From: an uncultured Bacteroidales bacterium
Lineage (GTDB): Bacteria > Bacteroidota > Bacteroidia > Bacteroidales > UBA932
Length of the DNA: 64,000 nucleotides
Direction: 5' to 3'
Assembly: GCA_905233275.1 (NCBI GenBank)
Contig: CAJODR010000001.1
Location: forward strand, 21,329 to 85,328
Notes under the pieces: generated by a model
Told to the model about the DNA's origin: nothing
Databases searched by the model: none
Seen by the model: only the letters and a program-made list of their open reading frames with translations
Made by a program: the position numbers and the translations under genes
Part shown: positions 40,683 to 62,124 of the stretch, one piece after another
Layout of the letters: the number at the start of each line of letters is the position of its first letter
Numbering within the stretch: position 1 is the first letter of the stretch

Positions 40683-40690
40683 TAACTTTG
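40683..40690 (+). promoter_or_regulatory. Predicted -7 box TAACTTTG for the first TonB receptor gene
   Basis: TAnnTTTG match with TTG about 21 nt upstream. Confidence 0.55.
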
Positions 40691-40738: not shown

Positions 40739-43700
40739 ATGAGAAAAGCTTTTAAAAGCATCCTGCTCGCATTCACGATGATGTTTGCGGGCTCTGTCGC
40801 CTATTCCCAGGTGACCACATCGTCCCTCGCCGGACACGTGGTTGACCAGAACGGCGAATCTGTTGTCGGCGCTACCGTCATCGTCCTGCACGAGCCCTCG
40901 GGTACCGTGTACGGCGGTGTCACCAACGTCGATGGACGGTATTCCCTCCAGGGCCTTCGCCCCGGCGGTCCCTACACCGTCACCTTCACACTTATCGGAT
41001 ACCGTGACGCCCAATACACGGACGTCACCCTCCAGCTCGCCGAGACCTACAATCTCCAGGCAAAGATGGAAGAAGCGACCGAATTCCTCTCCGAGGCAGT
41101 CGTGACCGCGGTCCCCGCCTCCAAGTTCTCGGCCGAGAAGACAGGTGCTGCGACCAACATCACGTCCAGCCAGATCATCTCGATGCCTACCGTATCGAGG
41201 AGCATTTCCGACATTACCCGCCTCTCTCCTTACGGCGGCAACGGAATGAGCTTCGCCGGTTCCGACGGACGTCTCGCCAACTTCACCGTTGACGGCGCCA
41301 ACTTCAACAACAACTTCGGCCTTTCCTCAAATCTCCCCGGTGGCGGTACTCCTATCTCCATCGACGCCATTGAGGAGGCCCAGGTGGTGATTTCCCCCTA
41401 TGACGTGCGCCAGACCAACTTTATCGGCGGCGGCGTCAACGCTATCACCAAGTCCGGTACCAACACCTTCCGCGGCACCGCCTACGTGTATCACAGGAAT
41501 GAAAACATGCAGGGCGACGCCGTCTGCGGCGAACAGATCACCGGTGCCCGCGAGAAAGACCGCAAGACCACTTACGGTCTCACCCTCGGCGGACCCATCA
41601 TCAAGAACAAACTCTTCTTCTTCGTCAACGCAGAATTCTCCAAGATCCCTACGGTGGTCAACCGCTGGAGAGGTTCCGAAGACGGCGTAGCCGATCCGGA
41701 CAATTACATCTCCCGTACCACTCTCACCGACCTTGAGAGGGTTTCCACCTTCCTGAGGACCAATTACGGCTACAACACAGGCTCATGGACAAAATTCCCT
41801 GCCGACGAGGACAACAAGAAGATCCTTGCCCGTCTCGACTGGAACATCGACAGCAGGAACCATCTCGCCCTCCGTTACAACCGCACTGTCAACAACTACT
41901 GGCAGAGCCCCAACGCAACCTCGATGGACGGTGGTACCCGTATGGCCGGTGCCCGTATGTCCCAGTACTCGATGTCCTTCGCCAATTCGATGTATTCGAT
42001 GCAGAACATCGTCGACACCTGGTCCCTCGATCTCAACAGCCGCATCAGCGACAATCTCTCCAACCAGTTCCTGGCCACATTCTCCAGGCTTGACGATATC
42101 CGCGGCACCAATTCTTCGGAATTCCCGTTCATCGACATCCTGAAGGACGACGACAACTACATGGCAGCAGGTTACGAGCTCTTCACATGGAACAATGCGG
42201 TTCACAACACCGTTGCCAACGTCAAGGATGACATCACCTACTCCCTCGGCCGCCACAAAATCACCGGAGGTATCAGCTTCGAATACCAGATGGCTGACAA
42301 CCAGTACATGCGTAACGGTTCCGGTTACTACCGTTATGACAGCCTGGACGACTTCCTCTCCGGAGCAGCTCCCGAAATCGTCTGCCTTACTTACGGCTAT
42401 GACGGCGAGACCGCACCTGCAGCCCGCGTCCAGTTCTACAAGGCCGGTATCTATGCCCAGGATGACTGGAGTGTCAACGACAAGTTCAAACTGACCTATG
42501 GCGTCCGTCTCGACGGTCTCTTCTTCGACAACGGAGACCTTATGACCAACGCTGCCATCAAGGCCCTCGACTATTATCCCAAGAAATACAACTACGCCGA
42601 GAAGCACATCGACACCGGCACATGGCCCACTTCCAACGTGACTGTTTCACCCCGCGTCGGCTTCACCTACGACGTGTTCGGTGACAAGAGCCTCAAGGTC
42701 CGCGGCGGTACCGGCCTCTTCGTCGGCCGTCTCCCGCTCGTGTTCTTCACCAACATGCCTACCAACGGCGGTCTCGTACAGTACCAGGCCCAGCTGAGCG
42801 GCAAGACCCAGGTCTATGACGCCAAGAATGACAAGGTAAAGCTCCCTTGGTACACCGGAGCAGTCACTGTCGATGACAAAGGCAACAAATACATCGACAT
42901 GAGCCAGTTCGCCGGCGGCCTCGTGACCGACAAGGACGGCAAAGCCACTGTCCAGGCCCTTCTCGACAAGCTCGCAGGCATGGGTTATCCTACGACAGTC
43001 TCTCCTGAGGACGGCACCGTGCCGAGCTCCATCAGCGCTGTCGATCCCAACTTCAAGATGCCTCAGGTATGGAAGACTTCCCTCGCAGTGGACTATTCCT
43101 TCCCGACATCCTTCCCGATGTCAATCACCGCTGAAGGCATTTTCAACAAGACCATCAACGCAGTCAGTATCTCCGACTGGAGCATGAAGGACGTCGGCGG
43201 ATACTCCCGCTTCAACGGCGTGGACAACCGTCCTATCTATCCTGCCAACTACCGCACCGGTACCAAGGCATTCGTCCTTGAGAATACCAACCAGGGTTAT
43301 GGCTGGTCAGCCAATGTCACCTTCAACATGAGCCCTGTCAAGGGTCTCGACATCATGGCCGCCTACACCCACACTGTCAACAAGGAGATCACCGGTATGC
43401 CCGGTAGTGCAGCCGAGTCCGCCTTCACCTACGTTCCCACGACCGAAGGCCCCAACTACATCAAGCTGCACAACTCCCAGTACGTGACTCCGGACCGCGT
43501 CATCGCTTCCGTATCCCACTCTGACAACAGCGGCAACCACTACAGCGTCATTTATGAGGCATGGAGGGGCGGTTACAGCTATTCCTACATGACCACCAAC
43601 GATATGAACGGTGACGGTTATGCATACGATGCCATCTATATCCCCACTGTCGCAGAGGTCGTCAACGGTGACTTCCGCTTCGTCTCCCAGGGTGATGCGG

Positions 43701-44104
43701 ACCGCTTCCTTGACTTCGTCGCCAAGGATAAGTACCTCTCCAGCCACAGGGGCCAGTATGCTGAGCCTTACAGTGTCTATTCTCCTTGGGTACACCGCTT
43801 CGACCTCAGCTACAAACATGACTTCACAGTCCATGTGGCAGGCCAGAAGAACACTCTCCAGGTCGGCTTCGACATCAAGAATGTCCTCAACCTCTTCAAC
43901 TCCAGCTGGGGTGTTTCCAAGTACCTCAATCCCGCCATCGGCAGCGAGGCCCGCATCCTCAAGTATGAGGGCGTCGACGGCGACGGCTATGCTACCTTCT
44001 CAACGCCGAAGGGTGTGAGCGGCGACACCGCCACTTTCGTTCCCAACCATTCTCTCGGCCAGTGCTGGTATGCTTCCATCGGTATCAAATATCTGTTCAA
44101 CTAA
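40739..44104 (+). CDS. Oar-like TonB-dependent receptor with carboxypeptidase-regulatory-like N-terminal domain
   Basis: SSLAGHVVDQNGESVVGATVIVLHEPSGTVYGGVTNVDGRYSLQGLRPGG; plug region GSDGRLANFTVDGANFNNNFGL; terminal LGQCWYASIGIKYLFN. Confidence 0.92.
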   Translation: MRKAFKSILLAFTMMFAGSVAYSQVTTSSLAGHVVDQNGESVVGATVIVLHEPSGTVYGGVTNVDGRYSLQGLRPGGPYTVTFTLIGYRDAQYTDVTLQLAETYNLQAKMEEATEFLSEAVVTAVPASKFSAEKTGAATNITSSQIISMPTVSRSISDITRLSPYGGNGMSFAGSDGRLANFTVDGANFNNNFGLSSNLPGGGTPISIDAIEEAQVVISPYDVRQTNFIGGGVNAITKSGTNTFRGTAYVYHRNENMQGDAVCGEQITGAREKDRKTTYGLTLGGPIIKNKLFFFVNAEFSKIPTVVNRWRGSEDGVADPDNYISRTTLTDLERVSTFLRTNYGYNTGSWTKFPADEDNKKILARLDWNIDSRNHLALRYNRTVNNYWQSPNATSMDGGTRMAGARMSQYSMSFANSMYSMQNIVDTWSLDLNSRISDNLSNQFLATFSRLDDIRGTNSSEFPFIDILKDDDNYMAAGYELFTWNNAVHNTVANVKDDITYSLGRHKITGGISFEYQMADNQYMRNGSGYYRYDSLDDFLSGAAPEIVCLTYGYDGETAPAARVQFYKAGIYAQDDWSVNDKFKLTYGVRLDGLFFDNGDLMTNAAIKALDYYPKKYNYAEKHIDTGTWPTSNVTVSPRVGFTYDVFGDKSLKVRGGTGLFVGRLPLVFFTNMPTNGGLVQYQAQLSGKTQVYDAKNDKVKLPWYTGAVTVDDKGNKYIDMSQFAGGLVTDKDGKATVQALLDKLAGMGYPTTVSPEDGTVPSSISAVDPNFKMPQVWKTSLAVDYSFPTSFPMSITAEGIFNKTINAVSISDWSMKDVGGYSRFNGVDNRPIYPANYRTGTKAFVLENTNQGYGWSANVTFNMSPVKGLDIMAAYTHTVNKEITGMPGSAAESAFTYVPTTEGPNYIKLHNSQYVTPDRVIASVSHSDNSGNHYSVIYEAWRGGYSYSYMTTNDMNGDGYAYDAIYIPTVAEVVNGDFRFVSQGDADRFLDFVAKDKYLSSHRGQYAEPYSVYSPWVHRFDLSYKHDFTVHVAGQKNTLQVGFDIKNVLNLFNSSWGVSKYLNPAIGSEARILKYEGVDGDGYATFSTPKGVSGDTATFVPNHSLGQCWYASIGIKYLFN

Positions 44105-44108
44105 TTAA

Positions 44109-45974
44109 ATGCAAGGCACTATGAAACTCAGATATTTATTCGTTTCACTTCTCGCAGTTCTCGGCCTTGCCGTAGCTTGTGAGACAGAGGAAGACCACTA
44201 TCTCGACGAGGTCAAGGTTTCATCCTCCTACCTCGCATTCCCTGCAGAGGGTGGCTCGGTCACCTTCTCGCTCAGCGCCGAGGAGGCATGGTCCATTACC
44301 GATACGCCCGAATGGCTCACAGTAAGCCCTTCTTCCGGAGGTGCCGGTGAGGTCAATGTGACCGCTACCGCCACCGCAGCCGAGGATACCCGCAGCGGCA
44401 ACTTCAATATCGTCTGCGGAGGCAAGACCCAGATCGTCAGCCTCATCCAGATGACGGAGAAAACAGAGCTTCCCGTTACTTCAATCGCCGATGTGATCGC
44501 CGCGGGCGCGGGCTCATTCCGCGTCAAGGGTACTGTCACCAAGGTGGCCAACACCCAGTACGGCAACATCTACATCAACGACGGCTCCACCGATACCAAT
44601 CTGTACATTTATGGTACAAAGAAGGACGGCGCCTATCCCAAGGACAGCACCGGCGGATGGGACAGCTTCGGCATCGAGCCCGGTGACATCATCACCGTAG
44701 AGGGTCCTTTCACCCTGTACAACGGCACCACTCCCGAGATTATCGACGGCGAACTCATCTCTGTCGAGAAATCCCTCATCCAGGTGGCTGCATTTGACTT
44801 TGAGACTCTCCCCGCAGAGGCCGGCTCATTCAGCATGACCGTCAATGCCAAGGTCTCCCCGATCCTCGTTACCACAGAGTCCGAATGGCTCCACGTCACG
44901 GATGTCGCTGCCGGCGGTGTCTACGTCCTCACCTATGACGAAAACACTCGTACAGCCACCCGTACCGCGACTATCACCATCAAAGGCCCCGGCGCCCTCA
45001 AGACAGTTGATGTCTCTCAGATCGGTGTACCTGCGAGCGGTGCTTCCGTTACCGAAATCATCGCCATGGAGGATGATTCCCAGGTCCAGACCCTCCAGTC
45101 CACCACTACCGTGGCCAAGACCACAAAGGGCATCGTGGTTTCTGACGGCGAATCTGCAGTATATGTTTATGGCACAGCTGTAGATGCCATCAAACTCGGT
45201 GACAACGTCCAGATCAGCGCCAAGAAGACCACTTACAACGGTGTTCCCGAACTTACCGATGTGACTGAGGTCATGGTCGACAGCGAAGGCAATACCGTCA
45301 AGCATCCGGAGGCCAAGGATATCACGGCCACTGCTACGGAATATACCGCCGACAAGGCTGAGTTCATTACTCTCTCCGGTACCCTTTTCGTAAGCGACGA
45401 CGGCAAGTACTACAACATGGAGATTGACGGAGTGGACAAGACTGTCCGTCAGGGCTCGATCGTCTATCCTGTCGAGTCCCTGAATGCCAAGAGCTTCAAC
45501 GGCAAGAAGATCACCGTAACAGGCTACTTCAACGGTATCTCTGGCAATGGTGTCTACATCAACATCATCGCTACCAAGATTTCCGAATTCGTCGAGAATC
45601 CCAAGGGCACCATCACCAATCCTTACGGTGCAGATGAACTTGCAGCTCTCCTTCTCGCAGGCGAGACCTTTGATTCAGAGGTTTATGCCAAAGGAAAGAT
45701 CAACAAGATCGACAGCATCTCCTGGGATGTGAACGCTGAAAAGTACTACGGCAATGCCCAGTACTGGCTTTCCGATGACGGTTCCGCAGCCACCCTCGAG
45801 GTTTACCGCGGCTTCTGGTTCGACGGTGACAAATTCACCGCCGAGGATCAGATCAAGGTCGGAGACGAGGTCCTTGTTTACGGCAAGGTGAAGCTTTATG
45901 TCAATGGGGACAACAAGACTCCCGAGTTTGATGCAGGCAACTATATCGTCTCCCTTAACGGCAAGACGGAATAA
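44109..45974 (+). CDS. BACON-domain lipoprotein with multiple OB-fold-like (DUF5689/YhcR-type) modules
   Basis: Lipobox ...LGLAVACETEEDHY; BACON LAFPAEGGSVTFSLSAEEAWSITDTPEWLTVSPSSG; repeated VKGTVTKV...GNIYINDGST and LSGTLFVSDDGKYYNMEIDG units. Confidence 0.82.
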   Translation: MQGTMKLRYLFVSLLAVLGLAVACETEEDHYLDEVKVSSSYLAFPAEGGSVTFSLSAEEAWSITDTPEWLTVSPSSGGAGEVNVTATATAAEDTRSGNFNIVCGGKTQIVSLIQMTEKTELPVTSIADVIAAGAGSFRVKGTVTKVANTQYGNIYINDGSTDTNLYIYGTKKDGAYPKDSTGGWDSFGIEPGDIITVEGPFTLYNGTTPEIIDGELISVEKSLIQVAAFDFETLPAEAGSFSMTVNAKVSPILVTTESEWLHVTDVAAGGVYVLTYDENTRTATRTATITIKGPGALKTVDVSQIGVPASGASVTEIIAMEDDSQVQTLQSTTTVAKTTKGIVVSDGESAVYVYGTAVDAIKLGDNVQISAKKTTYNGVPELTDVTEVMVDSEGNTVKHPEAKDITATATEYTADKAEFITLSGTLFVSDDGKYYNMEIDGVDKTVRQGSIVYPVESLNAKSFNGKKITVTGYFNGISGNGVYINIIATKISEFVENPKGTITNPYGADELAALLLAGETFDSEVYAKGKINKIDSISWDVNAEKYYGNAQYWLSDDGSAATLEVYRGFWFDGDKFTAEDQIKVGDEVLVYGKVKLYVNGDNKTPEFDAGNYIVSLNGKTE

Positions 45975-45998
45975 TCGCCATCAGCTCTCAAACAGTAG

Positions 45999-46033
45999 TC
46001 CGGACCCCTCCCGCGAGGGGCCCGGATTTTTTA
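45999..46033 (+). terminator. Rho-independent terminator
   Basis: TCCGGaCCCCTC-ccgc-GAGGGGcCCGGA followed by TTTTTT. Confidence 0.85.
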
Positions 46034-46067
46034 TTTTTCTTTTCTTGTAAAAGAAAGGGGAAATAAT

Positions 46068-46075
46068 TATCTTTG
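46068..46075 (+). promoter_or_regulatory. Predicted -7 box TATCTTTG for second part of the locus
   Basis: TAnnTTTG with TTG at 46045-46047, directly after terminator. Confidence 0.6.
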
Positions 46076-46117
46076 TAGGACTGGCAGAATTAAACAATAA
46101 CCAAATAAACCAACATT

Positions 46118-49100
46118 ATGAAACTCAGACACCTTCTTGTCGCCGCCGCAGCCGCGGTCTTCACCCTCGCCTCATGCGAAGAGGAAGAAAACCTCGGACC
46201 GGCATCTATCTCGATCGACGGAGTTACCGAGATAGAGCTTCCTGCGACGGAGTCTACCAAGACCGTCACATTCACGTCCACACGCGACTGGATGATCTCT
46301 TCCAAACCCGACTGGGTCCATCCCGACATCACAAAGGGACCCGCTTCCACGAAGCCCCAGACGGTCAACCTCACGTTTGAAGCCAACGGCGAATACAACC
46401 GCGAAGGCGTCGTCGTCTTCACCATCGGTCTCGCCAAGGCCCCGTTCAAGGTTTACCAGGCCGGTGAAAATGGCGAATATATTGTCCCGACGATCACCTG
46501 CGCCGAGTTCATCGAGAAAGCCGATCCCAACACAGAGTATCGTCTCGTCGGTACGGTCGCATCTGCAGTCAATACCTCATACTGCTCATTCGACCTCAAT
46601 GACGGCACCGCCACGGTCTCTGTATGGACCGTCAACAACAAGGACGAATGGAAAGACGTCGTCAAGAAGGGCGGCACAGTCACCGTACGCGGCAAATACA
46701 CCCTCTACGAGAACAACGGCTCCACCAAGCACGAAATGATCGATGCTTACATCGAATCCTTCGAGGAGGCCGTAATCGATGCCGCCGAGCCTGCAGGTGC
46801 CGGTACCGCTGAAGATCCGTACAACGTGGCAGCAGCCGTCCAGGCCGCTCAGGAGCTCACATGGACGTCTACCACCGAGTATCAGAAAGCGGGCCCGTTC
46901 TATATCAAGGGCAAAGTCTCCGCCATCAATGAAAACTTCGATGAAGTCGGCACCAACGGCACCAAGTACGGCAACGCCACATTCGACATGGTCGACGAGG
47001 GACATACCCAGACTTTCACCTGCTACCGCATCCTTCACTTCGGCAACAAGAAGTGGGTTGACGGCCAGCCGGTCCTCAGCGTCGATGACGAGGTCGTCAT
47101 CTGCGCCGAAATCATGAACTACCGCAACGACACTCCCGAGACGGTCCAGAATTCCGCATACCTCTACAGCCTCAACGGCGAAAAGGGCCAGGAGCAGACC
47201 GGCGCCGAACCTTCCGGTACAGGTACACTCGAAGATCCGTACAATGTCGCCGCCGCATGTGAACAGGCAAGCGACCTGACATGGACATCCAACACTGACT
47301 ATCAGAAGGCAGGCCCGTTCTACATCAAGGGTACTGTCTCTTCAATCAGCGATAACTTCGGCGCCAACGAGTTCGGCAACTCCACCTTCGTTATTGTCGA
47401 TAAGGGCTACACTCAGGAATTCACCTGCTATCGTATCCTCTACCTCGGCAACAAGAAATGGGTTAGCGGCCAGACCGCTCTTAAGGCTGAAGACGAAGTT
47501 GTCATCTGCGCCGAAATCATGAATTACCGCAACAACACGCCCGAAACGGTCCAGAATTCCGCATACCTCTACAGCCTCAACGGCAATACCGGTGAGCAGG
47601 GCGGCGATGAGACCATGGCCGATCCTACCGGTGACGGTTCGCTTGAAAACCCGTTCAATGTCGCCGGCGCCATCAACGCTGTCGCCGATCTCACATGGAC
47701 ATCCAACTCTGACTATGAAAAGGTCGGCCCGTTCTACGTCAAGGGCAAAATCAGTGAAGTCACCGACAACTTCGACAAGAAGAACGCCAGCACCGGCGAA
47801 TATTACGGCAACGCTACATTCATCATGGTGGACGAAGGCTACACAGCTACATTCACCGCATTCCGCATCCTCTATCTCGGCAACGAGAAGTGGGTAGAGG
47901 GACAGGATCTCGTAGCAGCCAATGATGAAGTCATCATTTGCGGCGAACTGATGAATTACAAGGGCAATGCCCCCGAAACGGTTTCCGGCAAGGCATATCT
48001 CTACAGCCTCAACGGCAATACCGGCGGTCAGCAGGGCGGCGATGAGACGATGGCCGATCCTATCGGAGACGGCTCGCTTGACAACCCGTTCAACGTAGCA
48101 GGCGCCATCAACGCTGTCGCCAACCTCGGCTGGACAGACAACCAGACATACGACAAGGTCGGTCCGTTCTATGTCAAGGGCAAAGTCGGCACCATCACCG
48201 ACAACTTCGACAAGAAGAACAATAGCGGCCAGTATTACGGCAACGCCACCTTCACCATGGTGGACGAAGGCTACACCGCCACATTCACCGCATACCGTAT
48301 CCTCTATCTCGGCAACAAGAAATGGGAAGAGGGGCAGGATATCCTGGCGGCCGACGACGAAGTTATCGTTTGCGGCGAACTGATGAATTACAAGGGCAAG
48401 GATCCCAATGTTCCCGAAACAGTCCAAGGCAGCGCATACCTCTACAGCCTCAACGGCTCGACCACCGTCGAGACCAAGCTCGTGATCTCCAGCTTCAAGA
48501 TTACTGCTACCGGTTTCTCCGCCGCATGGAACAATATTGAAAATGCGTCTTACACATACACTATCAGTGATGTGACCGGCTCTCCGGCAGCCATGGGTAC
48601 TACGAATGAAACCACCGTGGCCCAGGAGATAGGCAGTATGGACCTCCAGTGGGCTATCCAGGCTTGGGAGCCCGGCGCCACCTACACCCTTGAAGTCGCC
48701 GCCAATGTTCCCGGCGCCACCCAGGGCTACACGGCTACGGCAACCGCCAAGGCTCCGAGCCCTACCGGCGAGGCGATTGAGATCAAACTCGACTTCAGGC
48801 AAAAAGCTCCCTCCGGTCTGCCCACCGGTTCCTCCAACAAGGCTACGGATGTTAACAAATACACATGGGAGGGTTACGAGTTTACTCTCAGTGGATCCAG
48901 CGATGGTGGTTATTACTGGAATACTGACGGCTATGTCCTCATCGGCAAGCAGAATGCATACATACTCCTCCCTGCCATTGATGGCAAGAAGCTGACAAGC
49001 ATTGCATTCGAAACAGGTAAGAACGCCTCCACTGCTGTTATAGTTGATGTTCACTCCGCAGACGGCAACGGTGACCTTAACGTGAATACCACAGCCCTCA

Positions 49101-49219
49101 ACAAGGATACGGCTTATACCTGGGAGCTCACCGAAACTGAGGCCGGTGTACAGTACCGCATCCAGGTTGAGACCAAACACAACGCCCAGTTCAAGTATCT
49201 GAATCTCAAGTACGAATAG
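46118..49219 (+). CDS. Large BACON/OB-fold-like repeat lipoprotein (four tandem ~140-aa modules)
   Basis: Lipobox FTLASCEEEENLG; BACON; repeated EDPYNVAAA...GPFYIKGKVS...GNATFxMVDEGxTxTFTCYRIL...YLYSLNG. Confidence 0.85.
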   Translation: MKLRHLLVAAAAAVFTLASCEEEENLGPASISIDGVTEIELPATESTKTVTFTSTRDWMISSKPDWVHPDITKGPASTKPQTVNLTFEANGEYNREGVVVFTIGLAKAPFKVYQAGENGEYIVPTITCAEFIEKADPNTEYRLVGTVASAVNTSYCSFDLNDGTATVSVWTVNNKDEWKDVVKKGGTVTVRGKYTLYENNGSTKHEMIDAYIESFEEAVIDAAEPAGAGTAEDPYNVAAAVQAAQELTWTSTTEYQKAGPFYIKGKVSAINENFDEVGTNGTKYGNATFDMVDEGHTQTFTCYRILHFGNKKWVDGQPVLSVDDEVVICAEIMNYRNDTPETVQNSAYLYSLNGEKGQEQTGAEPSGTGTLEDPYNVAAACEQASDLTWTSNTDYQKAGPFYIKGTVSSISDNFGANEFGNSTFVIVDKGYTQEFTCYRILYLGNKKWVSGQTALKAEDEVVICAEIMNYRNNTPETVQNSAYLYSLNGNTGEQGGDETMADPTGDGSLENPFNVAGAINAVADLTWTSNSDYEKVGPFYVKGKISEVTDNFDKKNASTGEYYGNATFIMVDEGYTATFTAFRILYLGNEKWVEGQDLVAANDEVIICGELMNYKGNAPETVSGKAYLYSLNGNTGGQQGGDETMADPIGDGSLDNPFNVAGAINAVANLGWTDNQTYDKVGPFYVKGKVGTITDNFDKKNNSGQYYGNATFTMVDEGYTATFTAYRILYLGNKKWEEGQDILAADDEVIVCGELMNYKGKDPNVPETVQGSAYLYSLNGSTTVETKLVISSFKITATGFSAAWNNIENASYTYTISDVTGSPAAMGTTNETTVAQEIGSMDLQWAIQAWEPGATYTLEVAANVPGATQGYTATATAKAPSPTGEAIEIKLDFRQKAPSGLPTGSSNKATDVNKYTWEGYEFTLSGSSDGGYYWNTDGYVLIGKQNAYILLPAIDGKKLTSIAFETGKNASTAVIVDVHSADGNGDLNVNTTALNKDTAYTWELTETEAGVQYRIQVETKHNAQFKYLNLKYE
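46790..48465 (+). repeat. Four tandem ~410-bp coding repeats within the OB-fold lipoprotein gene
   Basis: Units begin near 46790, 47207, 47619 and 48052; units 3 and 4 most similar. Confidence 0.9.
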
Positions 49220-50394
49220 TGAAGCCGAGACTGTCATTAATCCTCGCAGCAGTAGCAGTGCTGGCGGTGCTCTTCTCATGTGAGAAGGAGAGTACCGTCG
49301 ACACCACTGCCACGCTGACGGCCAACAAGTCGTCGGTCGGTCCCGACGGCGGCAGCGTCTTCATCACCGTTTCCGCCAAAGGCGAATGGAGCATCACCCT
49401 TGAGCCTTCCGATTCCTGGGTGAGCATCAGCCCTTCGTCCGGAAACGGTGAGAGGGGAGATGTCCGCCTCCGCTTCGAGGCCAACTCCGGAGCCGTCAGG
49501 CGCAGCGTCAAGCTGGTGCTCTACAGCGGCAAAATGGCCGTCAATTCCCTGACTCTCACCCAGTACGGCACAGATGACGCGCCTTCCACCGGCAAGTACG
49601 GCTATGATGTCGCACCTATGGACTGGCTGGAGCTTCCCGCTACGGTAGCCGGTGACGGCCGCGAGCTGCTTGTCCACGACAAGAGTGGCGGCCTATACGT
49701 CAGCAAGTCCTCCAGCGGCATCCGCAACTGGTCATGCTACTGGGACTATGACGACCATCTCTCCCTCTGGGTGGCCTATCCCCTCAACCGCAACCTCATC
49801 GGAAGCGGCTCCAGGACCAATCAGTGGGGCTATGACAAACTCCTCCCGGCATCGATCCAACCGGCCCTCATCAACAATTCATACGGTGGAGGCTGGGCCC
49901 GCGGTCATCAGATACCTTCTGCCGACAGGCTGACGTACGCTGCCAACGTGTCCACATTCGTCCCGACGAACCTTACCCCCCAGGATTACGACTTCAACGG
50001 CGGAATCTGGGCCGGTCTGGAAACCAAGGTACGCAATTATGCAAACCAGGCGGATACGCTTTACGTTGTGACAGGATGCCTGTTCGACGGTTCGAAAACA
50101 GTGACCGGCAAAGACTCCGGATTCTATGTCAAGGTGCCCACGCATTACTTCAAGGCTCTTCTGTACAAGGGAACGTCTTCGTATGCGACAAGCGGTTACA
50201 TGGCCGCCGGATTCTTCTTTGAGCACTCCAGCTCAATCAGCGGCGACAACTTCCTGGATGACAAATACCTCATGTCGATTGACAAGCTTGAGGAAAAGAC
50301 AGGCATAGACTTCTTCCCCAATCTTGCGGCAAAGATCGGTGATACGGCTGCCGCCAAGATTGAGGCAGAGACTCCTTCAAAATGGTGGAAATAA
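49219..50394 (+). CDS. BACON-domain lipoprotein with DNA/RNA non-specific endonuclease (NUC) domain (GTG start, TAGTG overlap)
   Basis: NUC motif GGWARGHQIPSADRLTYAANVSTFVPTNLTPQ; BACON GSVFITVSAKGEWSITLEPSDSWVSISPSSG. Confidence 0.9.
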   Translation: MKPRLSLILAAVAVLAVLFSCEKESTVDTTATLTANKSSVGPDGGSVFITVSAKGEWSITLEPSDSWVSISPSSGNGERGDVRLRFEANSGAVRRSVKLVLYSGKMAVNSLTLTQYGTDDAPSTGKYGYDVAPMDWLELPATVAGDGRELLVHDKSGGLYVSKSSSGIRNWSCYWDYDDHLSLWVAYPLNRNLIGSGSRTNQWGYDKLLPASIQPALINNSYGGGWARGHQIPSADRLTYAANVSTFVPTNLTPQDYDFNGGIWAGLETKVRNYANQADTLYVVTGCLFDGSKTVTGKDSGFYVKVPTHYFKALLYKGTSSYATSGYMAAGFFFEHSSSISGDNFLDDKYLMSIDKLEEKTGIDFFPNLAAKIGDTAAAKIEAETPSKWWK

Positions 50395-50412
50395 CTTAGA
50401 ATCAACCATATA

Positions 50413-51480
50413 ATGAAAAGAATACTCCTTCCTCTTCTGATGATGCTCATTCTCGTCCCCTCGGCCGGGGCGCAGAAATCGAGATCCCATGTCATCGGGT
50501 TTTACAATCTTGAGAACCTCTTTGACACCTATCATGACGAAGGTAAAAACGATTACGAATACCTCCCTGAAGGCGGTAACCAATGGACCGAGGCCAAGTA
50601 TCAGAAAAAACTGTACAACATGGCCCACGTCATCGCCGCGATGAAGGAGGACAACAAGGTCTGGCATACCATTCTCGGCGTCTCCGAGGTTGAAAACCGC
50701 CACGTTCTCGAAGACCTCGTGGCAGAGCCCGAGATTGCCGAGGCCAATTACCAGATCATTCACTACGACGGTCCCGACCGCCGCGGTGTCGACGTCGCCC
50801 TCCTGTACAAACCCGAGATTGTCACGATCGTGGAGAGCAAATCGCTCCCGTTCACATTCGACAGCGAGAATATCAAATTCTCCATGACCCCCGAGGAGCA
50901 GGTCGAATTCCGCACCCGCGACATCCTCATGGTGCACTGCATAATCGACGGTGAGCATTTCGCCATCTACGTCTGCCACCTTCCTTCCCGCCTCGGCGGC
51001 AAGGGTCAGGACCTCCGTGCACGCGGCGGCGAGATCATCTACCTCCATTCGATGGAAATGATGAAGGAGTATCCCGGCATCAAGTGCATCGTAATGGGCG
51101 ATATGAACGACAATCCGGTGGATGACTCCATGGCTGTCTATCTCCACGGCAAGGGCACCATCGACGAGGTGGGACCGGAGGATTACTTCTCCCCCTTCCT
51201 CCCGATGTTCAACGCCGGGTACAGTTCGCTCTACTATCGCGGTGAGGGCAATATCTACGACTGCATCCTTGTCAACGACAACCTCGTCCACTGCGACAAG
51301 GGCTCTTTCAAGATCCAGCCCATCATCAAGAAGAAATACTACGGCCGCATCTTCTCAAAGCCTTTCATGACCAACCAGTCCGGCGCATACGTCGGTACGC
51401 CTTTCCGTACCTTCTCCGGCGGCCAGTTCACGGGCGGCTACTCCGACCATTATCCTACGTATATAGTTATAAAGAAATAA
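50413..51480 (+). CDS. Secreted endonuclease/exonuclease/phosphatase family protein
   Basis: Signal peptide; VIGFYNLENLFDTYHDEGKNDYEY; VSEVENRHVLEDL; MGDMNDNPVDDS; GGYSDHYP. Confidence 0.93.
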   Translation: MKRILLPLLMMLILVPSAGAQKSRSHVIGFYNLENLFDTYHDEGKNDYEYLPEGGNQWTEAKYQKKLYNMAHVIAAMKEDNKVWHTILGVSEVENRHVLEDLVAEPEIAEANYQIIHYDGPDRRGVDVALLYKPEIVTIVESKSLPFTFDSENIKFSMTPEEQVEFRTRDILMVHCIIDGEHFAIYVCHLPSRLGGKGQDLRARGGEIIYLHSMEMMKEYPGIKCIVMGDMNDNPVDDSMAVYLHGKGTIDEVGPEDYFSPFLPMFNAGYSSLYYRGEGNIYDCILVNDNLVHCDKGSFKIQPIIKKKYYGRIFSKPFMTNQSGAYVGTPFRTFSGGQFTGGYSDHYPTYIVIKK

Positions 51481-51481
51481 T

Positions 51482-54370
51482 ATGAAGAAACTAGTACTGA
51501 CCCTTTCCGCAGTGCTCCTCTCGGTGCTCCTGTCCGCCCAGGATCCGACGGGAGGCGTCAAGGGAACCGTCGTCAACCGTGAGGACCGTCAGGGCATCGA
51601 AAATGCCAACCTGACACTCCTCCAGGGCGCAGTCGAGATTGCCAAGGTGACTACCGACACCGCCGGCAACTTCCTCATCCCCGACCTCGCTGACGGCATG
51701 TACACCCTGGTGATCGATGCTCCAGATTTCCTCGAGACCCGGGTGGAAGTGACTGTCAACGACGGCTATGTCAAAAACATGTTCAACCTTTCGGTGACTC
51801 CGTCCCAGAAGCTCTCCGACCTCGGAGACGACTCCTTCGCGCAGTTTGACATGGACGACAGCGGATTCAAAGACAATCCGACCATCCTCTTCGGCTCGCA
51901 GGATGTCTTCAACAGCATCGCCGGCTACAACTTCAGCGCGGTCCGATTCCGCGCACGCGGATATGCTTCCGAGTCACAGGACGTGATGCTGGCTGGCGTA
52001 AAGCTCAATGATGCAGTCACCGGCTACAGTCCGTATTCCCTGTGGAGCGGCCTAAACGAGGCAACCCGTTCCAAGGAATCCGCATTCGGCTCTGAAGTGG
52101 CTGACTTCGGTTTCGGCGGCTACAACGGCATGACCAACATCTACGGTAACGCATCCTCCATGCGCCGACTCCTCCGCGGAAGCGTCATGACCAACAGCTC
52201 GCTCTACCGTCTCCGCCTGATGACCTCCTACGGCACGGGCCTCATGGACAACGGCTGGGCATTCGCGGTCAACTTCTCCGCCCGTCTCGGCGGAAATGAC
52301 TGGATAGACGGTGTCTATTACAAGAGTTTCGCATATTACTTCGCCGTCGACAGGGCCATCGGCAACCATCACAAGATCGGAGCCGCATTCTTCGGTACTC
52401 CGGGCGAGAGAGGTGCCCAGAACGCCTCCACCCAGGAAGTCTACGACCTCATGGGCGACAATATGTACAACTCCAACTGGGGATACCAGAACGGCAAGGT
52501 CCGCAACGCCCGCGTCCGCAAGGTTCACGAGCCGGTGGCGTTCATCAAGTATGATTTCACGCCGAATGACGACTTCTCGGCCTCTGCGACAGTCCTGTAC
52601 CGCTTCGGCAAGAACGGATACACCGCTCTCGACTGGTACGACGCCCAGGATCCCCGTCCGGACTACTACCGCAACCTCCCGAGCTACTTCATGGATGAAA
52701 GGGAGGACATGAACCGCGACAACCCCCTGAAGTGGGGATGGACCAGGGAAGTGTGGACCCATTCCTCCGATTTCCCGGAGCTCACCCACATCAATTGGGA
52801 CCGCCTCTATGCGGTCAATGCCATCCAGGACGGCGGCCGTTCCAAGTACGTTCAGGAAGAGCGCCACGTCGACCAGAGCGACCTCAACTTCGCAGGCTCG
52901 TTCAAATGGCGCCAGTCTGACAAGTTCACTCTTACCGGCGGTGTCAGCGCCCGTATGAACAAGACCGAATACTACAAGGAAGTCGCAGACCTTCTCGGAG
53001 GCCGCTATTTCATGGATATCGACAATTTCGCAGAGCGTGACTTCGCCGCCCAGCCGTACAAGCTCCAGAACGACCTGGACTACTACATGGAGCACGGCAA
53101 GGCCCGCGTTCTCGTCGAAGGAGACAAATACGGCTACGACTATTACGCACAAGTCCGTGACTTCGGCGGCTGGCTCAACGGCAAATTCTCCGCAGGCAAG
53201 TTCAGCGGCAACGTCGGCGTCAAGGCAGGCTACAACTCCTTCTGGAGGGAAGGCCTTCTCCGCAAGGGTCTCTTCCCCGGCGTGGACGAGAACGGACGCA
53301 ACCTCATCGTCGACGGAGTGGAAATCCAGCCCACATACGAGCCCGACGGCTCCGTGGTCACATCCTATGGCAAGTCTAAGGTTTCCAACTTCTTCACGTA
53401 CGCAGCCAAGGGCGGTCTGAGCTTCGTCATCAGCTCCCACCAGAAGATTTCCGGTAACATCGGCTACTTCCAGGACGCTCCCAAATTCAACCAGGCATTC
53501 CTCTCCCCGAGGACACGTAACTCCCTGGTCGAGGGTCTGGAGCCCGTTAAGACATTCTCCTCGGATATCAACTGGCTCTTCTTCGCCACGGGTATCAACA
53601 TCCGCCTCACGGCATTCTACACGGCCATTCTCGACCAGTCCAAGGTGATGAGCGCCTACGACGACCTGCAGAACGCATTCTCCAACTTTGCGATGAACAA
53701 TATCGACGAACGCCACGCCGGTATCGAATTCGGCCTCAAGGTCCCTACCCGCATTGTCCCGAATCTCTCGCTGCAGACAGTCCTCGCACTCGGACGCTAC
53801 GAATACATTTCGACGCCCCGCATGACCCAGACGCTCGACAACAGCGCCGAGACCGTTATGGAGAATGTCCTCGTGCCCTACTGGCGTACGACTTCCCTGC
53901 ATGACGGCACCGTCAAGCAGCACTACGTCCCTTCGACGCCCCAGATTGCTGCCAGCGTCGGCCTCAGCTACAATTACAACTACTGGTTCATCGACGCCGA
54001 CGTCGAATACTTCGGCGAATCCTACCTCGACATGAACCCTCTGTACCGCACCGACTACGCTACCGCAGGACGCGACCTGAACGCCACGGACGAAGAGATC
54101 CTGTACATGACATCACAGGAGAAATTCGATCCCGCGATCCTCGTCAACTTCTCGGTCGGCAAGTCCTGGTACATCCATCGCAAGTATCAGCTTGGCATGA
54201 ACATCAACGCCAAGAACATCCTCAACAACCGTGACGTCAAGACCGGCGGTTACGAGCAGACCCGTATCGTTGACAACACCGTCAACAACGAGCGCTACTA
54301 CCGCTTCGATCCCAAGTACTTCTACATGCCCGGTTTCAATTACATGATCAACGTTTACTTCAGATTCTAG
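51482..54370 (+). CDS. TonB-dependent receptor with carboxypeptidase-regulatory-like domain
   Basis: GGVKGTVVNREDRQGIENANLTLLQG; FSAVRFRARGYASESQDVMLAGVKLNDAVTGY; C-terminal FNYMINVYFRF. Confidence 0.92.
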   Translation: MKKLVLTLSAVLLSVLLSAQDPTGGVKGTVVNREDRQGIENANLTLLQGAVEIAKVTTDTAGNFLIPDLADGMYTLVIDAPDFLETRVEVTVNDGYVKNMFNLSVTPSQKLSDLGDDSFAQFDMDDSGFKDNPTILFGSQDVFNSIAGYNFSAVRFRARGYASESQDVMLAGVKLNDAVTGYSPYSLWSGLNEATRSKESAFGSEVADFGFGGYNGMTNIYGNASSMRRLLRGSVMTNSSLYRLRLMTSYGTGLMDNGWAFAVNFSARLGGNDWIDGVYYKSFAYYFAVDRAIGNHHKIGAAFFGTPGERGAQNASTQEVYDLMGDNMYNSNWGYQNGKVRNARVRKVHEPVAFIKYDFTPNDDFSASATVLYRFGKNGYTALDWYDAQDPRPDYYRNLPSYFMDEREDMNRDNPLKWGWTREVWTHSSDFPELTHINWDRLYAVNAIQDGGRSKYVQEERHVDQSDLNFAGSFKWRQSDKFTLTGGVSARMNKTEYYKEVADLLGGRYFMDIDNFAERDFAAQPYKLQNDLDYYMEHGKARVLVEGDKYGYDYYAQVRDFGGWLNGKFSAGKFSGNVGVKAGYNSFWREGLLRKGLFPGVDENGRNLIVDGVEIQPTYEPDGSVVTSYGKSKVSNFFTYAAKGGLSFVISSHQKISGNIGYFQDAPKFNQAFLSPRTRNSLVEGLEPVKTFSSDINWLFFATGINIRLTAFYTAILDQSKVMSAYDDLQNAFSNFAMNNIDERHAGIEFGLKVPTRIVPNLSLQTVLALGRYEYISTPRMTQTLDNSAETVMENVLVPYWRTTSLHDGTVKQHYVPSTPQIAASVGLSYNYNYWFIDADVEYFGESYLDMNPLYRTDYATAGRDLNATDEEILYMTSQEKFDPAILVNFSVGKSWYIHRKYQLGMNINAKNILNNRDVKTGGYEQTRIVDNTVNNERYYRFDPKYFYMPGFNYMINVYFRF

Positions 54371-54374
54371 GACT

Positions 54375-55589
54375 ATGAAAAAGATACTCATTTACTTCGC
54401 TGCCTTTGCAGCACTCGTTTCCTGCACGGATCTGAAAGAAGAGTGGCAGCCCGTCCTCACCTGTGGCGACATTGAGCCCGCTCCCAAGACGCTCTACACC
54501 GAGTCCTCACTTCCCGGCGAGGTCAACTTCATCTCCATCACCGACCTCAAGAAGATGTACAAGAGCGGCGGCCTGGAGATAGAGGATAACGTATGGATCA
54601 AGGGCCAGGTAACCTCCTCTGACAAGAGCGGCAATATCTACCGCGAGCTCTACATCCAGGACGAGACCGGCGGCATCGACGTCAAGGTCGGCAAGTCTTC
54701 GCTTTACAGCGAATATCTGCTCGGCCAGTGGGTCTATGTCAATTGCAAGGGCCTCCAGCTCGGTGCATACAACGGCATGCCCCAGCTCGGCGCCCCGCCG
54801 GACGAGACCTCTACCAACGAGTATGAGACCTCCTACATCGATGTCCAGGTCCTCATTGACCAGCATGTCTTCCCCGGTGCATACGATGAACCTTTGGATC
54901 CTATCGCGATCACACCTGCTGATATCAGGACCTCCATCAACAAAGGCTTCACCGGAGAGCTCTGGGGCAAACTCGTCAAACTCGACGGTCTCACCTACAA
55001 GAATGAGATATTCGCCCTCGTATACCCCAACCCCAATCTCCCCCACAAGAGCGGCAATCCTGAAAACAGGGTATTCTTCTCCGACAAGGGAACATGGGGC
55101 ATCACCACCTGGGCAATGTCAAAGAACAAAATGCTCGAGTACCTCGACACGCCGTATGTCACGCCCAACGGCGCTATGGTCAATCCCGACGGCACTCCCG
55201 TGTGCATCTGGGACGAAGTTGAGGTCGGCAGCGGAAACACCCGTTACGGTGCTATAGCCAGGATTACTCCCGCCAGCGTCCTCAAGGACGGCAAGACTCT
55301 TGACAGCTTCGGCGACGACGCCTATCTCACGTACAAGGAGATCATGCGTAAGTACGCCTCGGCCAACTATGTCTCGCATTATTTCGACTTCGGCGGAATA
55401 GACGTGCAGGTCCGCACCAGCGGCTACGCCAAATTCTCCGATGAGGAGCTCGACGGCCGTCTCCGCGAAGGTACCGGCAGTGCTACAATCGTCGGTATCC
55501 TCACCATCTACAACGATTCGGCTCAGATCACCCTCGTCGACGAGCCATCAATCAGCGTAAAAGTCAAAGATGTAGCGGGAACAAACTAG
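54375..55589 (+). CDS. DUF5689-like OB-fold lipoprotein
   Basis: Lipobox FAALVSCTDLKEEW; VWIKGQVTSSDKSGNIYRELYIQDETGGIDVKVGKSSLYSEYLLGQWVYVNCKGLQLGAYNG. Confidence 0.88.
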   Translation: MKKILIYFAAFAALVSCTDLKEEWQPVLTCGDIEPAPKTLYTESSLPGEVNFISITDLKKMYKSGGLEIEDNVWIKGQVTSSDKSGNIYRELYIQDETGGIDVKVGKSSLYSEYLLGQWVYVNCKGLQLGAYNGMPQLGAPPDETSTNEYETSYIDVQVLIDQHVFPGAYDEPLDPIAITPADIRTSINKGFTGELWGKLVKLDGLTYKNEIFALVYPNPNLPHKSGNPENRVFFSDKGTWGITTWAMSKNKMLEYLDTPYVTPNGAMVNPDGTPVCIWDEVEVGSGNTRYGAIARITPASVLKDGKTLDSFGDDAYLTYKEIMRKYASANYVSHYFDFGGIDVQVRTSGYAKFSDEELDGRLREGTGSATIVGILTIYNDSAQITLVDEPSISVKVKDVAGTN

Positions 55590-55611
55590 CAGTCAAGGCA
55601 TTACATGCAAA

Positions 55612-55650
55612 AACGGGACGGCCGAAAGCCGCCCCGTTATTGTTATTTTG
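55612..55650 (+). terminator. Candidate terminator at end of nuclease/TonB locus
   Basis: AACGGGaCGGC-cgaaa-GCCGcCCCGTT followed by T-rich tract. Confidence 0.65.
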
Positions 55651-55660
55651 CGCGCCCCGT

Positions 55661-55701
55661 TGTCATTTCGAGCGGAGGCGTTAGCAGGAGTCGAGAAATC
55701 T
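55661..55701 (+). repeat. Dispersed REP-like element, copy 3
   Basis: TGTCATTTCGAGCGGAGGCGTTAGCAGGAGTCGAGAAATCT. Confidence 0.8.
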
Positions 55702-55702
55702 A

Positions 55703-57124
55703 TTATTCCGCGAAAGCGTAGCTGTATCCGGCCACCTTGTCCCATTCGCCTCTAGTGAAGTCGGGGACTTCGACGGGACGGTTGCCGTTCTCGATGGAGA
55801 TGCGGGAGAGCTCTACGAGGCAGCACCATTCGGCGAGGTCATAGACGTCCATGTCGAGCGGGAGACCGTTGTGGAGGCAGTACACGAGGCGGTAGTCCAT
55901 GATGAAGTCCATTCCGCCGTGGCCGCCGATGGTCTTTGCGAGTGCCTCCAGCTCGGGGGTGTTGACCGGATTGCGGTGCTGTTCGAGGAGAGCGTCGAGT
56001 TCTGCTCCCTTGATGATCTTCTCGCCGCCGAGATTGTCATAGTTGACATTCTCCGCGCCTTCTTCGCGGAGGCAGACAATCTCAATGGGATACTTGCCTG
56101 CATAGCCGTCGGTGCCGACCAGCTGGTACATGCGGTCGTAGGGGCGGGGAGTCATGACATCATGCTCGATAAGCATGGTCTTGCCCTTTTCGGTGCGGAT
56201 GATTGTCGAGGTCTCGTCGCCGTTCTTGAATTCGGGGCAATCCCTGCCGGTTTTTGCCTTGACGTGCTTGGGGCCGTTGAAAGGATCGGTGTCCATCGAC
56301 ACGAGGGTGGTCATGCGATCGCCACGATGGATATTGAGGGCCTGGCAGATGGGGCCGATGCCGTGGGTCGGATAGACGTCGCCGCGGGTTACTTCGTTGA
56401 AATTCATTCGCCAATTGTTCCAGTATTCGTCCCAGAAGGGGTCGAGATTGTGGATATAGGCGCCTTCAGCGTGGATGATTTCGCCAAGGGCTCCGCTTTG
56501 GGCCAGGGTGAGGGCGGACATTTCGAAGAAGTCGTAGACGCAGTTCTCGAGCATCATGCAGTGCTTGCGGGTGCGCTCAGAGGTATTGATGAGGTCCCAA
56601 ATGTCCTTGAGAGAGGCGGCGGCGGGCACTTCGACGGCGACGTGTTTGCCCTGCTCCATGGCGTAGAGGGACATCGGCACGTGATTGAGCCAGTCGGTGC
56701 AGATATAGATAAGGTCGATGTCGTCACGTTCGCAGACCTTCTTCCAGCTGTCCTCGCCGACGTAAGTGTCTGCTTCCGGGAAGCCCCGTTTGAGGAGCGT
56801 AGCGTTGCACCAGTCGACATTCTCCTGGAGCAGGTCGCAGACAGCCTTGATCTCCACGCCGGGAAGATAGGTAAAGCGGTATACGGCGTCACTGCCTCTC
56901 ATTCCGACTCCGATAAAGCCGATGCGGATGTTCTCAATCGGCTCTGCAGTCATTCCCAGGGCACTTTTCTGTCCTGCGGGACGTTCGGGGACGGCGGTCT
57001 TGAGGATACCGTTTTCTTCGGTGATTTCTACTGATGCGGGTGCGAATGTGGCCTTTTTCGGGGCCTCCTTGCATGCGCCGATGGCGAATATGGCCGCGAG
57101 GGCGATGATTACTCTGATTCTCAT
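55703..57124 (-). CDS. Gfo/Idh/MocA-type GH109 glycosidase (alpha-N-acetylgalactosaminidase-like) lipoprotein
   Basis: NAD-binding IGFIGVGMRGSDAVYRF; YICTDWLNHVPMSLYAMEQGKHVAVEVPAA; HGGMDFIMDYRL; lipobox. Confidence 0.9.
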   Translation of the reverse strand: MRIRVIIALAAIFAIGACKEAPKKATFAPASVEITEENGILKTAVPERPAGQKSALGMTAEPIENIRIGFIGVGMRGSDAVYRFTYLPGVEIKAVCDLLQENVDWCNATLLKRGFPEADTYVGEDSWKKVCERDDIDLIYICTDWLNHVPMSLYAMEQGKHVAVEVPAAASLKDIWDLINTSERTRKHCMMLENCVYDFFEMSALTLAQSGALGEIIHAEGAYIHNLDPFWDEYWNNWRMNFNEVTRGDVYPTHGIGPICQALNIHRGDRMTTLVSMDTDPFNGPKHVKAKTGRDCPEFKNGDETSTIIRTEKGKTMLIEHDVMTPRPYDRMYQLVGTDGYAGKYPIEIVCLREEGAENVNYDNLGGEKIIKGAELDALLEQHRNPVNTPELEALAKTIGGHGGMDFIMDYRLVYCLHNGLPLDMDVYDLAEWCCLVELSRISIENGNRPVEVPDFTRGEWDKVAGYSYAFAE

Positions 57125-58215
57125 ATACTGTGCTTTTTGATGAATTCCTGCATTGCGGGCACCTTGCTCATCGCCGCGTGGAAGAGGGCGACCTGGTTGC
57201 GCGTGCGGACCAGATTGTGCTCCGGATACTTGATCTTATAATATGTATCGCCGTTGATGTAGTCCGCAAAGAACCGGACCGCCTGCATGTAAGGGAAGAG
57301 GCACGCGGCGTAGGGGAGATTGTCCCTCTCCACGGGAGTGAGGAATGTCGCGGACTCCAGATAGCCACGGGCGAATGCCTCGAAAATATCCATCTTGAAA
57401 TCCACCTTTTCGATCGCCGGATTGTCTTCGGCTACCGTATTGGCCGCCGTGCGGAGGAAATCGCCGAAATCGGAGAAGACGAATGACGGCATCAGCGTAT
57501 CCAGATCGATCACACAAAGAATATTGCCGTCTTTGTCGAACATCATGTTGTTGACCTTTGTATCGCAGTGGCAGATGCGCTTGGGAAGTATGCCCTCGCG
57601 GTACATCCTTTCCGCTTTGCACATCTCCTCTTCGTAGGGAAGAAGGTCACTGAGGATATCCTGGACCTCTTTTTCTGCCATTCTGCCCACCTTGTCTTCA
57701 GCCACGGCCTCCCTCAGCTGACGTGCCCTGAGCTCCATGTTGTGGAAGTCCGGAATCGTCTCCCCGAGCGTGTCGGGAATGTCCGCGAGCATCGCCTCGA
57801 AAGCGCCGAAAGCCTTTCCTGCATAGTAGGAATACTCGGGATTGACCGTCTCGTATGTGAATGCGTCCTTGATGAACACCGAGACTCTCCAGAAAGTCTC
57901 TCCGTCCGTCCAGTAGGTCTTGCCGGTAGCCTTTTCGGGAACAAAGCGGAGGACCTTGCGGTCGATGTCGGTTTCTCCGGCCGCAATGAGTTTGCGGCGA
58001 ATATGCTCCGTGGCGCAGTCAATATTGTGCTGCAGCAGCTCCACGTCCTTGAAAATGGCATTGTTGACCCTCTGCAGGACATAGTCGTCGGGTCCGTCAG
58101 TCTTGATTTTGAGGGTGTCGTTGATCAGACCGTTGCCCAGAGGCTTGATGTCAAGGATGTTTCCTTTGATGTCGAATTTGAGGGCGATTTCCCTCAGATC
58201 CTGTGGTGTTTTCAT
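57121..58215 (-). CDS. APH-family phosphotransferase, N-acetylhexosamine 1-kinase-like
   Basis: ICHCDTKVNNMMFDKDGNILCVIDLDTLMPSFVFSDFGDFLR; ATGA overlap with GH109 gene. Confidence 0.82.
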   Translation of the reverse strand: MKTPQDLREIALKFDIKGNILDIKPLGNGLINDTLKIKTDGPDDYVLQRVNNAIFKDVELLQHNIDCATEHIRRKLIAAGETDIDRKVLRFVPEKATGKTYWTDGETFWRVSVFIKDAFTYETVNPEYSYYAGKAFGAFEAMLADIPDTLGETIPDFHNMELRARQLREAVAEDKVGRMAEKEVQDILSDLLPYEEEMCKAERMYREGILPKRICHCDTKVNNMMFDKDGNILCVIDLDTLMPSFVFSDFGDFLRTAANTVAEDNPAIEKVDFKMDIFEAFARGYLESATFLTPVERDNLPYAACLFPYMQAVRFFADYINGDTYYKIKYPEHNLVRTRNQVALFHAAMSKVPAMQEFIKKHSI

Positions 58216-58317
58216 TGTGCGATTAGTGTAATTCCTTGCAAAAATACGAAGAATCAGTGAATAATCCGAAAAAACTTATTAACTTTGCCTTCCCGTTTGA
58301 CACGGGACCCAATCTTC

Positions 58318-58395
58318 AGGGGTGTAGCTCAGCTGGTTTAGAGCGCTTCAGTCACATTGAAGAGGTCATCGGTTCGAACCCGATCATCCCTACCA
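58318..58395 (+). tRNA. tRNA-Val (anticodon CAC), 3' CCA encoded
   Basis: Full cloverleaf by eye: AGGGGTG/CATCCCT acceptor, GCTC/GAGC D stem, CTTCA-gtCACat-TGAAG anticodon arm, ATCGG-TTCGAAC-CCGAT T arm. Confidence 0.88.
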
Positions 58396-58399
58396 CAAA

Positions 58400-58432
58400 A
58401 ACTGCCGGTCAATTTCCCGACCGGCAGTTTTT
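58400..58432 (+). terminator. Rho-independent terminator after tRNA
   Basis: CTGCCGGTC-aatttccc-GACCGGCAG followed by TTTTT. Confidence 0.9.
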
Positions 58433-58461
58433 GCTCTCTCCCCGGGGCACGTCTCCCAAAG

Positions 58462-59967: not shown

Positions 59968-59987
59968 ATTAATATATGGGTTAGGGA

Positions 59988-60536: not shown

Positions 60537-60617
60537 CTCAACTTTTTTTGCAAAAATAATTATAAATCGGCAAAAATATTTTGTTTTTGCCGATTTATAC
60601 AAATTCTTTCTCTGCTC

Positions 60618-62063: not shown

Positions 62064-62124
62064 TTGAGGGATAAGGCGTACAAATTTCGTGCCCCGCTCG
62101 GGATTTTTTATTACCTTTGTCAAC

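Follow-up and report, generated by a model that had tools for sequence, protein, structure and literature searches.

Riemerella anatipestifer is a bacterium of ducks. A non-saturating transposon screen of its natural transformation (3000 insertions) picked RA0C_RS04915, encoding a carboxypeptidase-regulatory outer-membrane protein, and RA0C_RS04920, encoding a DUF5689 protein; markerless deletion of either gene brought transformation below detection (about 10^5-fold), and many other mutants showed a partial loss only (PMC8459023). In that report, homologs of the barrel protein were said to be confined to Flavobacteriaceae. In Porphyromonas gingivalis, a 2024 study found ComEA and ComEC to be essential and stated that the step bringing DNA into the periplasm 'remains unclear' (PMC11532111). 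Here we analysed a 64,000-nucleotide stretch of DNA from an uncultured Bacteroidales bacterium (contig CAJODR010000001.1; hereafter the window), where seven open reading frames (g1-g7) probably formed two separate transcription units, unit A (g1-g2, 40739-45974) and unit B (g3-g7, 46118-55589). The core pair of this gut-type Bacteroidota locus, the barrel gene g6 and the DUF5689 gene g7, turned out to be distant relatives of the two R. anatipestifer genes that are essential for transformation.

The R. anatipestifer genome was reached via a published primer sequence. It contained one full-length homolog of g6 (51482..54370, + strand; E 6e-158). The products of g6 and RA0C_RS04915 were 29% identical over 962 amino acids, again at full length (E 2e-103); the R. 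anatipestifer barrel was the reciprocal best match of g6, and its sole match in the window's genome was g6. The only DUF5689 gene of the R. anatipestifer genome was located directly 3' of the barrel gene, as g7 (54375..55589, + strand) is of g6, and g7 aligned with RA0C_RS04920 at an hhalign probability of 99.5. Directly upstream of the barrel gene there was an EEP gene, the position that g5 (50413..51480, + strand) occupies in the window, and the two EEP proteins were 30% identical. Judging by the spacing of locus tags, this EEP gene is probably RA0C_RS04910. The comEC and recA genes of R. anatipestifer lay near the barrel gene at the distances implied by their locus tags. Thus, unit B contained the R. 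anatipestifer (RA)-type module, that is, a full-length reciprocal-best barrel gene with a DUF5689 gene adjacent downstream. The two loci also differed. In R. anatipestifer the EEP gene was divergent, no gene for a NUC nuclease or an OB/BACON lipoprotein was present at the locus, the DUF5689 protein was longer (469 aa), and identity to the window's proteins was about 30%. The EEP gene is not mentioned in the accessible portion of the transformation study (PMC8459023), and the function of the barrel/DUF5689 pair has been tested in R. anatipestifer alone. Beyond that study, no report on DUF5689 was found in the literature searched. The initial annotation had suggested that the locus might be undescribed as a unit. 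This does not apply to its core, whose homologs are required for R. anatipestifer transformation, but the nuclease-enriched variant of the RA-type module is new.

To describe the conservation of the locus, we compared 20-kb stretches around homologs. The g6 gene was found in 30 of 80 family genomes at E<=1e-50 (including three short matches to likely paralogs), in 110 of 197 genomes of the order, and in 28 of 197 genomes of a phylum-wide sample, where all 28 belonged to the window's class. Therefore, the restriction of the barrel to Flavobacteriaceae in the earlier report was too narrow, and the RA-type module predicted from these genomes extends to the window's order and to several other families of the class. 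Among the phylum-level loci (n=20), the DUF5689 gene was adjacent downstream of g6 in 19 and the EEP gene was adjacent, divergent and upstream in 17; among the order-level loci (n=40), DUF5689 flanked g6 in 39 and EEP in 23. Linkage at such frequencies was not due to chance, with the reservation that the counts were taken over related genomes and binomial figures serve as a rough guide only. When all genes within six genes of g6 were clustered for 75 loci, DUF5689 (69 loci) and EEP (52 loci) were the only tightly linked families. The family ranked third was present at 15 of the 75 loci; judged from sequence, it appeared to be a dolichol-phosphate mannosyltransferase, with a dihydroorotase next to it. 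Since DUF5689 and EEP were so far ahead of all other neighbours, EEP, g6 and DUF5689 constitute an ancient conserved unit, and they are the only part of unit B that does. EEP can accordingly be regarded as a candidate third core member of the RA-type module.

A NUC gene was found near g6 at 7 of the 75 loci. Thus, the proposed conservation of the gene set across Bacteroidota stood for the EEP/g6/DUF5689 trio across the class and not for NUC. In close relatives of the window, the genes for the OB lipoprotein, NUC, EEP, g6 and DUF5689 kept the same order and strand. The NUC and multi-OB lipoprotein additions were present in the window's family and at loci L101 and L102, where the EEP gene was also reoriented and read with g6. 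These additions appear to be restricted to the window's lineage and a small number of other lineages of the order.

The only Pfam match of g6 was CarboxypepD_reg, and no barrel family was matched. The AlphaFold2 model of g6, built from 12 sequences with a predicted local-distance difference test (pLDDT) score of 68, comprised an N-terminal domain, a plug region of low confidence and 22 barrel strands. A Foldseek search of this model against the PDB returned the TonB-dependent transporters Fiu, OprC, FecA, BtuB and SusC, with a best E of 3e-19 and modest TM-scores. The Plug match of one relative reached no better than E 0.012, and no TonB box was identified in g6. With its 22 strands and its matches to solved transporters, the predicted model places g6 in the TonB-dependent-transporter fold. 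Accordingly, the two TonB-dependent receptors of the initial annotation were both retained, g1 by Pfam and g6, as a TonB-dependent-type barrel, by its predicted model, and there was likewise no SusD-family match among g1-g7 in Pfam. At L073, L074 and L075 the g6-like gene was a diverged paralog that lacked EEP and DUF5689 neighbours; at L074 and L075 it was paired with an uncharacterised protein of about 275 residues.

The g7 product is a lipoprotein with a strong DUF5689 match (8e-45). Its AlphaFold2 model (pLDDT 76) had among its top 50 Foldseek matches the p204 HIN/dsDNA complex (HIN-200), archaeal and human RPA, RADX, BRCA2-ssDNA, CST and the OB domains of tRNA synthetases. Whole-chain TM-scores were low, in line with flexible tandem domains. 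By its model, g7 resembles a tandem OB protein of the nucleic-acid-binding kind, a likeness that does not imply a specific ligand; no solved sequence relative of DUF5689 was found. The g3 product (46118..49219, + strand) had a Pfam OB domain at residues 140-203 (1.9e-7) and four tandem repeats of about 125 residues that were 57-73% identical. These repeats were considered as OB or DUF5689 homologs, a reading rejected since Pfam and hhalign gave no support. The likeness of the OB modules to nucleic-acid binders was borne out by the predicted model of g7. Lipoboxes were present in g2, g3, g4 and g7. Acidic residues directly after the lipobox cysteine are the surface-export pattern of Bacteroidota lipoproteins, and such residues were found in g3 (CEEEE) and in g2, whose lipobox ...VACETEED continues into the acidic run CETEED. 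The g2 lipoprotein (44109..45974, + strand) carried two BACON domains (BACON_2, 1.5e-17) and an OB domain (6.5e-7). Of the three lipoproteins annotated as BACON plus OB, g2 therefore fitted fully and g3 by its OB domain, with BACON below threshold (Pfam E 0.028), while g7 had OB/DUF5689 and no BACON in Pfam. Upstream of NUC, at or near the g3 position, lipoproteins in which DUF5689 was repeated in tandem three or four times were seen in L044 (1704-6032), L045 (7929-11045), L047 (6033-8930) and L048 (5265-9653). At L032 (15567-17849) and L039 (13330-15393), an M3 peptidase gene followed the DUF5689 gene.

The g4 gene (49219..50394, + strand) encoded a BACON-bearing lipoprotein with a NUC-family DNA/RNA non-specific endonuclease domain, as annotated at the outset. 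The Pfam match (Endonuclease_NS, 4e-36) was above the cut-off, and the RGH, Asn and Glu catalytic positions were kept in 11 loci. Its NUC domain matched Anabaena NucA (1e-20) and mitochondrial EXOG; g4 differs from both in being a BACON-bearing lipoprotein encoded in a putative outer-membrane import operon. The pneumococcal competence nuclease EndA also belongs to the NUC family and acts at a Gram-positive cell membrane. At L041, L042 and L050 the nuclease was a BACON-DUF5689-NUC fusion, and this fusion therefore ties DUF5689 to nucleic acid.

The g5 protein belonged to the EEP superfamily (Exo_endo_phos_3, PF19580, 2e-84), and its residues N32, E92, H189, D230, N232, D283 and S344-D345-H346 were invariant in 16 homologs. 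No solved relative was found by phmmer, and a profile search against solved structures gave only nocturnin, weakly. Since the protein had a plain signal peptide and neither a lipobox nor a type IX secretion tail was seen, its location is probably periplasmic. Thus, the EEP assignment was correct, and secretion, which had been proposed for it, is less likely than a periplasmic location. A second EEP gene was located just 3' of the DUF5689 gene in L045 (1072-2094) and L047 (14698-15723), giving two EEPs per cluster. A 5'-nucleotidase gene adjoined the EEP gene of the g6 locus in L069 (12535-13950) and L072 (16959-18368), both confirmed by Pfam, and apparently also in L071 (1967-3400, by its N-terminus). 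The extracellular nucleases ExeM, NucH and YhcR have OB and EEP modules in common with the locus, where these modules were encoded by separate genes. Identity with the ExeM/NucH DNases was rejected since g2 and g5 scored 19-24 bits against NF033681, which has a cut-off of 300; the OB match of g2 in this comparison was 5e-4.

All seven genes were collinear on the + strand, and the span 40739-55589 ran exactly from the g1 start to the g7 stop, as previously annotated. The intergenic gaps from g1 to g7 were 4, 143, -1, 18, 1 and 4 bases. TAnnTTTG is the Bacteroidota -7 type promoter consensus. On the + strand of the locus, there were only two such boxes and both were intergenic: one 5' of g1 (40683..40690) and one, TATCTTTG, in the 143-base gap between g2 and g3 (46068..46075). 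In the same gap, the box was preceded by an intrinsic-terminator-like hairpin (45999..46038, -22.8 kcal/mol) with the T-run TTTTTTATTTTT. Because the hairpin with its T-run and the internal promoter box separate g2 from g3, we divided the locus into two units instead of the single one originally assumed: an Oar plus OB module and a separate OB-NUC-EEP-g6-DUF5689 operon. Another terminator-like hairpin was located 3' of g7 (55613..55655, from the fold of 55590-55703). The first gene of unit A, g1 (40739..44104, + strand), encoded an Oar-like TonB-dependent receptor (OMP_b-brl_4, 1.5e-50; CarboxypepD_reg; TonB_dep_Rec, 7e-7). Other genomes agreed with two separate units. At L036, units A and B were on the same strand in a different order with metK between them, and the genomes G015, G062 and G068, which carry the fusion loci L041, L042 and L050, had Oar and DUF5689-NUC genes near metK and no g6. 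Unit A is probably a separate nucleic-acid-related neighbour system. Beyond the locus, a row of genes on the - strand of the window (55703-62144) encoded a GH109-like protein, an APH-type kinase, a sialidase-type BNR protein and a sulfatase, and looks like a mucin glycan foraging cluster.

The window's genome also encoded ComEC, DprA and a ComEA-like membrane protein with two HHH motifs, and thereby has the inner-membrane and cytosolic partners that an RA-type module would need. Its ComEC (contig C9, L145:2397-3458) had 353 residues and was channel-only, without DUF4131 or a nuclease domain; many relatives had a similarly short ComEC. No metallo-beta-lactamase domain was found by Pfam in this protein or in the R. 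anatipestifer ComEC. It is tempting, though unproven, to propose that EEP may supply the strand-degrading activity missing from ComEC. An association between short ComEC and the g6 block was considered and rejected, since ComEC lengths overlapped those of genomes without g6 and followed lineage.

Taken together, we consider it fairly probable that unit B encodes machinery for importing DNA across the outer membrane, with a core homologous to the R. anatipestifer transformation locus. The homology, synteny, predicted folds and catalytic residues come from the present analysis, and the knockout phenotype is taken from the R. anatipestifer literature (PMC8459023). We infer that this organism's copy moves DNA, that TonB energises the movement and that NUC, EEP and g3 participate in the following order. 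At the entrance to the g6 barrel, the surface OB lipoproteins g3 and g7 would catch nucleic acid, which the g4 endonuclease would cut to importable size. The barrel would then pass DNA into the periplasm, where g5 may process it, and the short ComEC with the ComEA-like protein could move a strand to the cytoplasm. The best-supported function is one in which g6 carries nucleic acid through the outer membrane and g7 serves as its receptor. The capture, cleavage and import of nucleic acid proposed in the initial annotation was therefore well supported by the R. anatipestifer trio and knockouts, the g6 and g7 models, the conserved catalytic residues of the nucleases, the DUF5689-NUC fusions and the conservation of the gene set.

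Several observations weigh against DNA import for transformation, and some of them favour nutrition instead. The R. anatipestifer proteins were only about 30% identical to those of the window, their locus had no adjoining NUC or multi-OB lipoprotein gene, and the g6 model was of moderate confidence. ComEC was rejected as a discriminator since it was nearly universal (78 of 80 genomes), and the window's own ComEC had only the channel domain. Flavobacterium johnsoniae was not transformable under the R. anatipestifer conditions, and its genus reportedly has the homologs (PMC8459023; PMC7965970). Along with the 5'-nucleotidase beside EEP in three genera, this suits a scavenging system in which extracellular DNA or RNA is digested at the cell surface and the resulting oligonucleotides or nucleosides enter by the TonB-dependent barrels as sources of phosphorus, nitrogen or carbon, with any transformation as a by-product. 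The presence of two nucleases, the fusion of NUC to DUF5689, and the occurrence of unit A, including a DUF5689-NUC protein of its own, in three genomes lacking unit B (G015, G062 and G068) are also consistent with scavenging. Phosphate-utilisation systems of Bacteroidota likewise pair TonB-dependent barrels with phosphodiesterases and nucleases at low phosphate, the phosphodiesterase pairing being known from Flavobacterium (PMC8115612). Such loci and Sus-type loci share with the window the clustering of a TonB-dependent barrel, surface lipoproteins and hydrolases; however, the window's locus had no SusD and no in-cluster regulator, its lipoproteins were of OB, DUF5689 and BACON type, and its hydrolases were nucleases. 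Moreover, the F. johnsoniae EEP gene Fjoh_0074, which need not be the g5 homolog, was only weakly phosphate-regulated (log2 fold change 1.15; PMC8115612), most of the 75 loci lacked NUC or any nucleotide-salvage gene, and the sole known genetic phenotype of a g6/g7 homolog was loss of transformation (PMC8459023). We regard scavenging as rather unlikely to be the primary role.

A combined use, in which one outer-membrane machine imports DNA that is mostly degraded as food and occasionally recombined, draws on the same data as both transformation and scavenging, and the nuclease-bearing variants in the window's clade suggest a shift towards degradation; we consider it possible, if doubtful. It is quite improbable that another ligand is the cargo of the barrel and DUF5689 and that their effect on R. 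anatipestifer transformation is indirect, for instance through the envelope or nutrient state, with EEP acting as a phosphatase or phosphodiesterase on another substrate. TonB-dependent barrels are versatile, OB folds bind other ligands as well, and R. anatipestifer tonB mutants act on transformation partly via iron, which also confounds the tonB evidence for DNA import (PMC8383284). Nevertheless, the nearest solved folds of DUF5689 were nucleic-acid binders, DUF5689 was fused to NUC, and the mutants fell below detection where many others were partial. A Sus analogue for carbon or phosphorus no longer seems the best reading of the locus and is kept alive as a rival by the 5'-nucleotidase. A better fit is a TonB-type machine that imports DNA through the outer membrane and that, in Riemerella at least, serves transformation.

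More broadly, we tentatively propose, at somewhat less than even confidence, that Bacteroidia share a class-wide DNA-uptake apparatus. It would have a TonB-dependent barrel in place of the type IV pilus and secretin that other Gram-negative bacteria use, a tandem-OB DUF5689 protein as the catcher, an EEP compensating for the missing nuclease domain of ComEC, and lineage-specific NUC and multi-OB additions. How DNA enters through the outer membrane of Bacteroidota is an explicit open question, and since workers on P. gingivalis state that its route is unknown (PMC11532111), the EEP/g6/DUF5689 finding is directly testable. In Bacteroidota of the gut and mouth, the trio provides named gene targets with which to test transformation and hence how resistance genes spread.

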